A DNA stretch of 32,819 nucleotides. Origin: Kiritimatiellia bacterium. GTDB taxonomy: Bacteria > Verrucomicrobiota > Kiritimatiellia > PWTM01. The DNA lies in assembly GCA_017996315.1 (NCBI GenBank), contig JAGOHE010000007.1:1-32819 (forward strand), written 5' to 3'. Under the pieces are notes generated by a model that was not told the DNA's origin, ran no database searches, and worked only from the letters and a program-made list of their open reading frames with translations. Shown here in pieces: positions 1 through 17,668 of the stretch; within the stretch, counting starts at the first letter, position 1; the number at the start of each line of letters is the position of its first letter. Position numbers and translations under genes: made by a program.

Positions 1-145
1 GCCATCTGAGTATTCGTCTTGCCATCGAAGCGCGTCGCTCGGTCGGACGATCTTGGATCAGTCGTCAGACGTCCGGTTTGGATGAGTCCTGGCCGGGCGA
101 TGCGTGTTTCGGTCAGTGTATCCACAGGACGGGCCGCCGCCACGG

Positions 146-14242: not shown

Positions 14243-14271
14243 TTGCATTGCCCGGTGTCCTGCCCTACTTT
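14243..14271 (+). promoter_or_regulatory. Predicted promoter of the first exported-protein pair
   Basis: TTGCAT (14243-14248) and TACTTT (14266-14271) are 17 bases apart, implying a leader of about 47 bases with GGAGAAG at 14313-14319. The same TTGCATT -35 and 17-base spacing recur ahead of the second copy at 16084. Confidence 0.5.
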
Positions 14272-14324
14272 AGCCATTGCGTACAGGAACGGTTTCGAAA
14301 AAAAGCTTACATGGAGAAGCGATC

Positions 14325-15056
14325 ATGAAGAAGACAATGATGGTTTCGGTGTTCGCGGGAGTCGCGCTGGGTGCCGTCGTGGCGATCGCGCAGCAGGCCG
14401 TATACAGCTCCAACGTGGTGGGATTCGTCACCGTGGATGTTCCCCGGGGCGGAATGATCATGTTGCGCAACGACTTCGTGAATCCGGATGGCGGCGACAT
14501 TTCCCCCAGTACACTTTTTGGAGACACCCTGCCGGTGGGCACGAAAATTCAGAAATGGGAAACCGACGGAACTCCCGGGTACAGCTTTTCCACATACTCG
14601 ATTGCATTCGGCCCGCCCCCCCTCTTTTTGGCGGAGACCAATTGGACTCCCGATACTGTTTCGCTGGAGCGGGGCGGCGGCTTCTGGGTGCAGATTCCTA
14701 CGAACGCGCCCGATGCCAGCTATACCGTTACCGTCAGCGGAGAAGTTCCCGATGAAGCGGAAGCCACTGTGCCGGTCGCTGAAGGGCTGAATATGCTCGC
14801 GTATATGTTTCCTGCCGAAGTCTTGTGGACCAATACAACGCTCGCCAAAAAGGCTAAGGTTGGGGACAGGGTATACCTTTGGGACGGCAGCCAGTACAAC
14901 ATCTCAACATATGCGGTAACGTTTGGCCCACCCCCCGCCTTTGCCCCGGCAACGAATTGGTCGCTTCCCGGCATGAAGATTCCCGTCGGGCGGAGTGTGT
15001 GGTATAATGCGACGGAAGCGGATACATGGACGGAGGCGAGTCCGTATACCCTGTAG
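14325..15056 (+). CDS. Exported repeat protein of unknown function, copy 1
   Basis: Function not known. The 243-residue protein has a signal peptide (MKKTMMVSVFAGVALGA to about residue 23, cutting after AIA) and a Gly/aromatic-rich beta-type body opening SSNVVGFVTVDVP. Similar exported proteins with this opening are widespread in PVC bacteria (general knowledge). Two halves resemble each other: each has a W near the start, then an STY...FGPPP...TNW stretch, then a short G-x-x-x/V-W-style strand. It is clearly homologous to the protein at 16133-16891, with shared stretches such as VLWTNTTLAK. An in-frame ATG at 14277 would add 16 residues before the signal peptide and was not used. A PEP-CTERM gene follows 27 bases downstream. 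Confidence 0.8.
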   Translation: MKKTMMVSVFAGVALGAVVAIAQQAVYSSNVVGFVTVDVPRGGMIMLRNDFVNPDGGDISPSTLFGDTLPVGTKIQKWETDGTPGYSFSTYSIAFGPPPLFLAETNWTPDTVSLERGGGFWVQIPTNAPDASYTVTVSGEVPDEAEATVPVAEGLNMLAYMFPAEVLWTNTTLAKKAKVGDRVYLWDGSQYNISTYAVTFGPPPAFAPATNWSLPGMKIPVGRSVWYNATEADTWTEASPYTL

Positions 15057-15083
15057 CAGAAGGAATGCGCAAGGAATAATCCA

Positions 15084-15740
15084 ATGAAAATTATTAAAAT
15101 GCTCGTTGTAGTGTCCTGCTTGATGCTCGCCGGCGTTGCTCATGCAGACGTAGCGATTCTGTGGAGTTCCACTACCTACTTCTTGCTGGCCGGGGGCGAT
15201 CCCATGGACTATCCGGCGGACTATGTTCCGGCCGATACGCTCCGTTTGCTGATTTGGAGCGCTTCCGCGCCGCCTGCCGTGGATTATGCCAAGGCCGGCA
15301 CCGGTATCGGTGATGGTGAATATATTCTCTGGAGCTCCGTTGCGGATCCAGTCCGACCCGGAGACAACGTGTATGACTCCGGACGCTTCAATTTTTCCGG
15401 CACAGCCATCATCAAGGACAACTCGGCTGTCGGCGGCAATAACATCAATTCTGGATATATCTATTCCAGAATTTTCAGCTCCAGCGTCCCCGTAGCTGGA
15501 CAGTATTACTTTCAGTCTTTGACTGCGCTGGGTCCCATGCTCGCCGATTATGATCCGCTCGTTCCAGGTTCAACCCTTGACCATGTTACATCAGCGGTCC
15601 CGAACCTGGAACTTGTGGACACAAATAACCCGACCGCTCAGAACGGCATGTACACCGTAGTCCCCGAGCCCGGATCGCTGTTGCTGGCGTTCCCCGTGCT
15701 GGGCGTGATGGCGGTCCGCCGAATGCGCCGTCGCGATTAG
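15084..15740 (+). CDS. PEP-CTERM sorting domain protein, copy 1
   Basis: A 218-residue exported protein with an N-terminal signal peptide (MKIIKMLVVVSCLMLAGVAHA) and a C-terminal PEP-CTERM tail: VPEPGSLLL, a hydrophobic helix, then RRMRRRD. Such tails are recognised by an exosortase (encoded elsewhere) and the proteins are usually released to the surface or matrix. The body is unassigned; it contains YPADYVPADTLRLLIWS and NINSGYIYSRIFS, both nearly matched in the protein at 16925-17614. AAGGAA at 15071-15076 supports the ATG, although a second Met is close behind. It is co-transcribed with the preceding gene and ends at a strong hairpin terminator. Confidence 0.85.
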   Translation: MKIIKMLVVVSCLMLAGVAHADVAILWSSTTYFLLAGGDPMDYPADYVPADTLRLLIWSASAPPAVDYAKAGTGIGDGEYILWSSVADPVRPGDNVYDSGRFNFSGTAIIKDNSAVGGNNINSGYIYSRIFSSSVPVAGQYYFQSLTALGPMLADYDPLVPGSTLDHVTSAVPNLELVDTNNPTAQNGMYTVVPEPGSLLLAFPVLGVMAVRRMRRRD

Positions 15741-15760
15741 TATCGCTTGTCATCTCTTCA

Positions 15761-15795
15761 GAATCAGCCCTCCACCCGGAGGGCTGATTCGTTTT
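15761..15795 (+). terminator. Rho-independent terminator of the first pair
   Basis: A perfect 13-base stem (15761-15773 with 15778-15790) and a 4-base loop ACCC are followed by GTTTT. The left half GAATCAGCCCTC differs at one base from GAATCCGCCCTC in the terminator after the second pair. Confidence 0.85.
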
Positions 15796-16083
15796 GAACG
15801 ATTGTTGTTCCGTCAGACTTCGGTTTCAGTAGTGTCCCTATTTTCCGATGGGCCATGGATCGAATCCATCGTCGAGTGGCAACACCCTGCTTTTCGTAGC
15901 CGGTTTACTTTTCCCGTCGGGCCGACGGAGCGGGGTCGCTGTTCACGCGCACCCGCCAGGAGAAGCCAAGGTACCGTCGGATTTCCTGCGGGGCTGGCAG
16001 CCCGGTTTCGGCGAAGCCGGGCTATGCCATGCCGCATCGCTAACGCAGGCCAAATCAACATGAAGAATTCTTGTCTTTTCTAT
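15796..16083 (+). other. Intergenic stretch with several hairpins, no supported gene
   Basis: This 288-base stretch lies between a terminator and the next predicted promoter, so it should not be leader sequence for the gene at 16133. It contains CCGTCGG-G-CCGACGG (15914-15928) and a 12-base hairpin at 15999-16010/16012-16023 (one G-T pair), preceded by GGGCTGGCAGCCC. An open frame across it (15802-16119) has no signal peptide, no domain and a poor start, so it is not called. A small RNA or the remains of the duplication junction are possible. I checked by eye for cobalamin, TPP and cyclic-di-GMP riboswitch signatures and found none. Confidence 0.4.
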
Positions 16084-16112
16084 TTGCATTTCACTATTTC
16101 AACAAATAGAAT
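16084..16112 (+). promoter_or_regulatory. Predicted promoter of the second exported-protein pair
   Basis: TTGCAT (16084-16089) and TAGAAT (16107-16112) are 17 bases apart. The leader would be about 14 bases with AGGA at 16122-16125. The element lies in a locally A+T-rich stretch. Confidence 0.55.
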
Positions 16113-16132
16113 AATCTGATCAGGATCGGATT

Positions 16133-16891
16133 ATGAACAATCACCGTGTATTTAATATCGTCTTTGGCGCGGCGTGTGCCGGGCTGATGGTGTCGGCCGC
16201 CGTCTCCTTTGCGCAGACACGCGTGGCCAGTAAGAACGTTGTTGGCTACGTTTCGCTGACCGTGGATCGGGGAACAATGGTCATGCTGCGGAATGATTTT
16301 TTGAGGAAGGACGGCGAAGCATCCACGCCGCAGAGTCTATTTGGAGCGAATCTGCCCGTAGGCACAGAAGTGCTCGTCTGGGATTCGACGCTCTCGGGCT
16401 ATTCGAGATCTGTGTACAGCATTTCCTATGGCCCGCCTCCTGCGTTTGCTCCGATAACCAATTGGAGTCATGTACTACAGCTCAATCGCGGAACAGGATT
16501 TTGGCTGGTGATTCCGAAAGATGCAGAGCACGAAACGTACTCCGTCGTGCTTGCCGGGTCAGTTCCTGATGAAGAGGACCATACAACTCCCATCGCGGAA
16601 AATTTGAACATGGCGGCCTATGCATTTCCTGTGGAAGTCCTTTGGACCAATACCACCCTTGCAAAAAGCGCCAGCATAGGCGACAAGGCATACCTCTGGA
16701 CAAAGAGCCAAGCGGGAACATGGGGATATCAAATTAACACCTATGAAACCACCTATGGGCCGCCGCCTACATTTACCCCAACCACAGGATGGAATAACAA
16801 AAGTATGCTGATTCCCGTGGGACGGGCTGTTTGGTATCAATCAGCCACGGCCAAGACCTGGACAGAGGAACGGCCATATCCGGAATTCTAG
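16133..16891 (+). CDS. Exported repeat protein of unknown function, copy 2
   Basis: Paralogue of the protein at 14325-15056, 252 residues. The signal peptide ends near SFAQ (residue 28) and the mature part again opens with a NVVGYVSLTVDRG-like strand. Shared landmarks along the whole length include VMLRNDF, LFGANLPVGTEV, YGPPPAFAPITNW, SVPDEEDHTTPIAENLNM, VLWTNTTLAK, YGPPPTFTPTTGW and IPVGRAVWYQS. The first/second-half internal repeat seen in copy 1 is present here too. The coding sequence is noticeably richer in A+T than the flanking housekeeping genes. Its function is not known; an envelope or extracellular structural role is a guess from export and from the PEP-CTERM partner 33 bases downstream. 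Confidence 0.8.
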   Translation: MNNHRVFNIVFGAACAGLMVSAAVSFAQTRVASKNVVGYVSLTVDRGTMVMLRNDFLRKDGEASTPQSLFGANLPVGTEVLVWDSTLSGYSRSVYSISYGPPPAFAPITNWSHVLQLNRGTGFWLVIPKDAEHETYSVVLAGSVPDEEDHTTPIAENLNMAAYAFPVEVLWTNTTLAKSASIGDKAYLWTKSQAGTWGYQINTYETTYGPPPTFTPTTGWNNKSMLIPVGRAVWYQSATAKTWTEERPYPEF

Positions 16892-16924
16892 TCAGAGAGA
16901 GCCAATAATCAGGTGTAAAGTAGC

Positions 16925-17614
16925 ATGAAGAAATATTTCGTCATTATGCTGTGTGTCGCAGGGTTGACCGCATCTGCATTGGCAGACATTGCGGTTGCGT
17001 ATAAGTCGACCATGTATTTTGTAGATAACGGAGCGACTGATCCGCTGGTCTATCCTGATGACTATCTCCCAGAGGATGCGTTGCACATCCTGATATGGAG
17101 TCCTCTGGGTGTACCTGCCTTTGACTATGCGCAACCCGGCACCGGCGTTGGAGGCGGGAATCCCGATTATGTTGAGTATGTCCTGTATTCAAGCAATGTT
17201 GATGAGATACGCGCGGAACATGACGATTCGCGCGATGATTCTGGGCGATTCGACTACAGCGGATTTGCGTTTGTGTTCAACGATTCTGACGTTGGCGGCT
17301 TGGATATCAATAGTGGATACCTGTATTCACGAATATTTTCGACAAGCAATCCGGCCGCAGGCAGTTGGTATTACCAGTCAGAAGCAGTGCAGGGGCCTAG
17401 TCTGGCTGAGTATGTGCCCCTGAACCCGATAATCTTGGAACATACCACGAGCTTGGCTACTGGGGAATTACAGCAGCGTCAAATGGGCGTTGGAACCGGG
17501 ATGTACCAGGTAATTCCCGAGCCCGCCACTGGCGTTCTGGCCCTGACCGCGCTGGGCATGCTGATTTACCGTCGCAGGCGCAGCCCGTTATCGGCGGTAC
17601 GACACAGGGAATAG
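16925..17614 (+). CDS. PEP-CTERM sorting domain protein, copy 2
   Basis: Paralogue of the protein at 15084-15740, 229 residues. It has a signal peptide (MKKYFVIMLCVAGLTASALA) and a C-terminal VIPEPATGVLALTALGML-type tail followed by YRRRR, the PEP-CTERM pattern. Shared landmarks are YPDDYLPEDALHILIWS, PGTGVGGG, DSGRFDYSG, DINSGYLYSRIFS and a YYQS segment. It has an acidic insertion (DDSRDDS) absent from copy 1, and 13 or so residues beyond the basic cluster at the C-terminus, which is longer than usual. A+T-rich for this genome: 17281-17340 has only 25 G/C in 60. The ribosome site is weak, and translation may depend on the upstream gene. A terminator follows directly. Confidence 0.85.
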   Translation: MKKYFVIMLCVAGLTASALADIAVAYKSTMYFVDNGATDPLVYPDDYLPEDALHILIWSPLGVPAFDYAQPGTGVGGGNPDYVEYVLYSSNVDEIRAEHDDSRDDSGRFDYSGFAFVFNDSDVGGLDINSGYLYSRIFSTSNPAAGSWYYQSEAVQGPSLAEYVPLNPIILEHTTSLATGELQQRQMGVGTGMYQVIPEPATGVLALTALGMLIYRRRRSPLSAVRHRE

Positions 17615-17634
17615 GACCCGTCCCCTCTGCTTTG

Positions 17635-17668
17635 AATCCGCCCTCGCATGCGAGGGCGGATTTGTTTG
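17635..17668. terminator. Bidirectional hairpin terminator
   Basis: A perfect 28-base palindrome (17635-17648 with 17649-17662) is followed by TTTGTTTG. It lies between the converging PEP-CTERM gene and alarmone hydrolase gene, so it could serve both. Its left arm closely resembles that of the terminator at 15761. Confidence 0.85.

Follow-up and report, generated by a model that had tools for sequence, protein, structure and literature searches.

Some environmental bacteria encode tens of PEP-CTERM proteins per genome, and few of these have a known partner or function. In the PEP-CTERM/exosortase system (EpsH; TIGR02595, PF07589, and PF09721), the exported protein ends in a PEP motif, a hydrophobic helix, and an Arg-rich stretch, and the genes mostly form single-gene operons (PMC1569441). 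In Aquincola, overexpression of the PEP-CTERM protein PepA turns soluble exopolysaccharide into a cell-bound form (PMC9850573). TIGR02597 is an NCBIfam "paralog" family of unknown function, of which our literature search found no mention. The stretch analyzed here (the window) comprises 32,819 nt of contig JAGOHE010000007.1 of a Kiritimatiellia bacterium and carries two consecutive gene pairs in the order A1-B1-A2-B2, all on the plus strand, where A encodes an exported two-repeat beta protein and B an exported PEP-CTERM protein. The pair recurs almost without exception across this little-studied bacterial class, and this recurrence suggests a two-part module at the cell surface that has so far gone undescribed; a literature search found nothing on the A-B pairing or on Kiritimatiellota PEP-CTERM proteins. 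The locus resembles the PEP-CTERM/exosortase system in the signal peptide, PEP motif, hydrophobic helix, and Arg-rich end of B and in the presence of an exosortase in the genome. It differs in the near-constant exported, untailed partner encoded directly upstream of B, whereas PEP-CTERM genes mostly stand alone.

Profiles built from two sequences matched A in 48 of 289 phylum genomes and B in 36, the weakest B matches covering the tail only, and a 45-member A profile matched 109 phylum genomes. An exported PEP-CTERM gene (~170-230 aa) was located directly downstream of A on the same strand in 49 of 56 cases of the first set, with a median A-to-B gap of 43 nt (quartiles 30-50); the seven exceptions were three contig ends and four large or divergent proteins. 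The second set, consisting of 40 further stretches found after the 45-member profile, gave a PEP-CTERM partner after A in 51 of 58 cases, so that the two phylum sets together reached 100 of 114 A-family matches examined. For the test in the opposite direction, a model of the B core was built that excludes the signal peptide and the tail. A was found ≤700 nt upstream in 46 of 56 B-core matches, and the remaining ones were B genes present as a second copy, matches at contig ends, fragments within large proteins, and a few orphans. In a named set, gathered with a broader selection by the VLS[RAQ]NAVGY motif and labeled almost entirely Kiritimatiellae, Lentisphaerae, or Verrucomicrobia, a B-family gene followed all 24 untruncated A genes; its genomes are partly shared with the phylum sets. 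Querying the named genomes with A of the window and with its nearest relative gave no matches. The first-pass annotation had named near-absence of adjacency among homologues elsewhere as evidence against its proposal; adjacency was the rule in all three sets, so the proposal was not refuted. At one locus (L132:3236-3940), the apparent loss of the B tail is due to a frameshift just before the PEP-CTERM region, the frameshift being either real or an assembly error.

The mirror-tree correlation over all pairs was 0.53, a value that could reflect species phylogeny. Partners were therefore shuffled within genomes, which controls for species phylogeny, using 21 pairs from six genomes that belong to one genus and carry 2-5 pairs apiece. 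The observed correlation (r = 0.717) dropped to 0.12 ± 0.11 in the shuffles (p = 0.0002), from which it follows that each A paralogue is passed on together with its matching B. Four of the six genomes contain arrays of 4-5 pairs in both orientations, extending over roughly 10-15 kb (L148-L151, genus g9). A tandem pair was also observed in L128/L114, and an A-B-B arrangement in L129 and L130.

The B1 gene (15084-15740, plus strand, 218 aa) was recognized from its open reading frame (ORF), its homologue B2, the B-family alignment, and the PEP motif with its tail; its paralogue B2 (16925-17614, plus strand, 229 aa) was recognized from ORF, homology, genome search, and tree data. Both C-termini consist of PEP, a hydrophobic helix, and an Arg-rich tail. 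PF07589 matched only below its cut-off (16.1 vs. 20.7 for B1, whose motif is nevertheless complete); TIGR02595 exceeded its cut-off in B2 only (19.4 vs. 16) and matched 41 of 49 B homologues at E ≤ 0.01. The B protein combines a signal peptide with a variable beta core and a PEP-CTERM tail, and apart from the tail, no convincing family match was obtained for the B homologues in Pfam and NCBIfam. Signal peptides were called by a hydropathy heuristic together with AxA-type sites, and the four window proteins and most homologues were positive. The flocculation-associated PepA family (NF033554) weakly matched the C-terminal half of B1 (E = 4e-4); however, B1 reached 20.3 bits and B2 14.4 bits against a cut-off of 80, placing both outside the family, and the reported neighbor of PepA is the TPR protein PrsT, with no A-like partner. 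The exosortase gene that the first-pass annotation had suggested looking for in the same genome was found (PF09721, G000:C48:854-1651, E = 2.5e-55).

Three pairs lie outside the phylum by label, namely L143:4677-6477 and L192:1180-2963 in a Krumholzibacteriota-labeled genome (G289) and L144:4584-6246. Both B proteins of G289 keep the core (41-42 bits with the core-only model), with A upstream, and have FlgD-Ig-like tails instead of PEP-CTERM (PF13860, E = 4e-10, for L143; by reading for L192), while B of L144 ends in a non-PEP hydrophobic tail. The G289 tails resemble those of FlgD_ig and secretion-system C-terminal domain proteins (PF13860 and PF18962); this type was found only in the pairs of that one genome, whereas the window B proteins are of the PEP-CTERM type. 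The A proteins of L143, L192, and L144 carry an extra N-terminal region. Real A-B pairs occur in one of 80 genomes of the G289 phylum, and because the other 79 are without them, transfer or a mislabeled assembly is likely. The anchor-swap genomes likewise carry exosortase genes. Since A stays when the anchor of B changes, these sequences argue that the A-B pairing can survive a change of anchor and that the partner of A is the B core rather than the exosortase. The swap also indicates which part of B likely faces the partner.

The A1 gene (14325-15056, plus strand, 243 aa) is supported by its ORF, the A2 homologue, the family profile, the internal repeat, and the structural model, and its paralogue A2 (16133-16891, plus strand, 252 aa) by ORF, homology, genome search, and tree data. 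The A protein has a signal-peptide-like N-terminus and no membrane tail. Its two halves are homologous (hhalign 99.2% vs. ≤1.4% for shuffled columns), so the label "repeat protein" given in the first-pass annotation was correct. The single-chain model of A1 was confident and almost all beta, with a predicted local distance difference test (pLDDT) score of 85.7 and a predicted template modeling (pTM) score of 0.78. The A model had no Foldseek match in PDB at E ≤ 0.001 (best 0.076) and nothing significant in BFVD, PDB sequences gave no match (best E = 0.13), and no Pfam or NCBIfam model matched any of 45 A members. TIGR02597 did not match A1 or A2 at E ≤ 1, nor any of the 45 class A members at E ≤ 0.01. 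The distant matches of the A profile in other Verrucomicrobiota families nevertheless fit TIGR02597 with E down to 4e-20, and two of five exceeded its cut-off of 50 bits (L183 and L184, with 72 and 54 bits, respectively). Several matches of this type (L184-L187) also precede a PEP-CTERM gene. Since the distant A-profile matches score as TIGR02597, A is a diverged branch of the TIGR02597 superfamily, at superfamily level only; the window A proteins fall outside TIGR02597 itself, and A measures about 220-260 aa compared with the 363-position model. The A module occurs also as part of larger proteins, with an A-like domain inside giant ORFs (2540-4358 aa; G162:C32 and G239:C117) and in a long ORF (567 aa; L076).

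Alternatively, A could act in the periplasm as an escort or chaperone, holding B in a form competent for export and for processing by the exosortase without being displayed itself; it has a signal peptide yet lacks an anchor, and its gene comes first, close to that of B. Matched paralogues would fit a dedicated escort, as would the persistence of A beside the B core when the anchor changes. However, A bears no resemblance to known chaperones, being a beta protein of two repeats that diverges strongly, and the TIGR02597-related domains in giant exported-type ORFs (G162 and G239) fit a structural module better. Such an escort role is considered unlikely.

With somewhat better than even confidence, we favor the reading that every A-B pair forms an autonomous transcription unit of two genes, the products of which make up a single two-part module at the cell surface. 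B would cross the inner membrane via its signal peptide and be held there by the C-terminal helix, the exosortase of the genome would process it, and the processed protein would be attached to the outer surface or to exopolysaccharide. A would be secreted by its own signal peptide and kept at the surface by binding B, so that B would be the anchored half and A the displayed soluble half. The pairs would duplicate as units, and therefore each A would remain with its own B. By analogy with Aquincola PepA, for which making exopolysaccharide cell-bound offers a possible functional model, the module may bind the cell's own polysaccharide or a surface. The first-pass annotation had proposed that the two proteins work together, with one of them sorted by exosortase; as a genetic statement, this is well supported because the genes are adjacent, the paralogues are matched, and an exosortase is encoded in the same genome, although the retention of one duplication, on which it had relied, is by itself weak evidence for joint function. 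A near-obligate co-inherited partner provides a concrete handle on the function of PEP-CTERM proteins, and the matched pairs are testable for binding. TIGR02597-related proteins are widespread in Verrucomicrobiota, and the pair would also place one branch of them in a functional context. A more speculative extension, to which we attach a low probability, is that the A and B of each pair are cognate and partner-specific, forming diversifying two-component surface modules that do not depend on the anchor, the B core being sorted via exosortase or another C-terminal route. The arrays of 4-5 pairs in one genus would then be a repertoire of alternative surface pairs, e.g., for attachment or kin/surface recognition.

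Several observations weigh against the two-part module. The B core is poorly conserved (~20% mean column identity), and the B model, with a pLDDT of 69 and no fold relative found in PDB, is of low confidence and too weak to interpret. Exosortase genes were present in 107 of 109 A-positive and 108 of 180 A-negative genomes, the two A-positive genomes without exosortase having their A matches only within giant ORFs. Since almost all genomes of the class encode an exosortase, phylogeny confounds this co-occurrence, which is weak evidence for a strict tie between pair and exosortase. All data are predicted genes, mostly from metagenome assemblies. Second B genes without their own A occur in G095, G175, and G207, and a few B genes are without any A (G087:C45). 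The contact between A and B is one that we infer, the structural models being of single chains only. The A-B-B loci, the orphans, the inferred nature of the contact, and the fast divergence of both families would also fit A and B being independent matrix or surface proteins that are merely co-transcribed and do not touch. Shared regulation, however, would need neither the near-constant order and adjacency class-wide nor the matched paralogue trees within genomes, and the pair was kept after transfer and anchor swap; independence is accordingly rated as rather unlikely.

In the window, the two-part unit is present twice. A1 and A2 share 53% identity over 236 aa (BLASTP E ~1e-79; global score z = 42 vs. 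shuffles), and B1 and B2 share 47% over ~220 aa (E ~5e-57; z = 30), while A and B have no mutual similarity. Trees built from 99 pairs place A1 beside A2 and B1 beside B2 as sisters, with supports of 0.996 and 0.984, respectively, and no third A or B copy was found in the source genome (2.2 Mb assembly, 84% complete). Based on the pairwise identities, the sister placement, and the absence of a third genome copy, the whole A-B unit was duplicated within the lineage in a fairly old event. Terminator-like hairpins follow B1 (15761-15790, pattern match at 15762-15789, plus strand; about -25 kcal/mol) and B2 (17634-17663, pattern match at 17635-17662, plus strand; about -23 kcal/mol). The pattern AATCnGCCCTC..GAGGGCnGATT has exactly two sites in the 2.2-Mb genome, one behind each B, and its reversed control has none; the hairpin was duplicated along with the genes. 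Chance similarity or artefact as the source of the copies was ruled out by the alignment scores, the genome-unique hairpin, and the trees. The four ORFs given in the first-pass annotation are all present and intact at its coordinates and their products pairwise homologous as it had claimed; its tandem duplication of a complete unit holds for A, B, and the hairpin, and is not confirmed for the promoter.

A duplication of this kind might also be neutral, the pair being a small cassette that is mobile or readily duplicated and has no joint function under selection, and tandem copies, arrays, and a likely transfer to another phylum are in line with it. Against this, the A repeat has been retained throughout the class at 25-50% identity, as have the reading frames, the signal peptides, and the sorting tails, and none of the recurrent neighbors of A-B is transposase-like, which makes neutrality very improbable.

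Promoter-like sequences of the form TTGCAT-N17-TAnnnT precede both A copies, 53 nt (A1) and 20 nt (A2) from the start codons. The first (TTGCAT-N17-TACTTT, 14243-14271, plus strand) is a consensus reading missed by a strict scan, and the second (TTGCAT-N17-TAGAAT, 16084-16112, plus strand) is a sequence reading. The stricter sigma-70 scan found the second site only, in a shifted register, and the number of sites was not above that in shuffles. The regions upstream of A1 and A2 aligned no better than chance (score 8 vs. a shuffle mean of 8.2), and TTGCAT is not family-typical (7 of 82 A upstream regions vs. 3.4 expected). On these grounds, a duplicated promoter was rejected as unproven. Family-wide, TTGnnn-16..18-TAnnnT was found upstream of A in 46 of 82 regions vs. 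10.9 in shuffles, and a hairpin 3' of B in 40 of 45 (a count without a control set); in the window hairpins, the T tract is weak. Because of the upstream TTGnnn/TAnnnT sites and the hairpin after B, A-B looks like an independent two-gene operon.

Large membrane proteins that carry TPR tails adjoin A-B at about 10 loci from several families; they are absent beside the window copy. These neighbors are MFS and spermidine-synthase-like (PF01564) or TMEM260-like O-mannosyltransferase (PF11028) proteins (L074, L075, L094, L099, L080, L101, L103, and L114; L065, L072, and L073). Class genomes have about 0-4 genes with the spermidine-synthase domain, mostly 0-2, and in G163, G038, and G035, the PF01564 gene next to A-B is the only one found genome-wide. 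This provides a hint that the TPR-tailed neighbors may modify the module, of which they do not appear to be a general part. At L069:5324-5993 (minus strand), a B gene without A is located beside glycosyltransferase-2-like and methyltransferase-like genes.

A mobile origin of the window locus was considered and rejected, its neighbors being housekeeping-like and the window containing no tRNA. No RNA element of Rfam matched in the window, including the GC-rich palindromic stretch GCAGCCCGGTTTCGGCGAAGCCGGGCTATGC in the ~260 nt spacer between the units (15800-16060). The G+C content of the A and B genes ranges from 0.52 to 0.58, compared with 0.645 for the window and 0.62-0.66 for its housekeeping genes.

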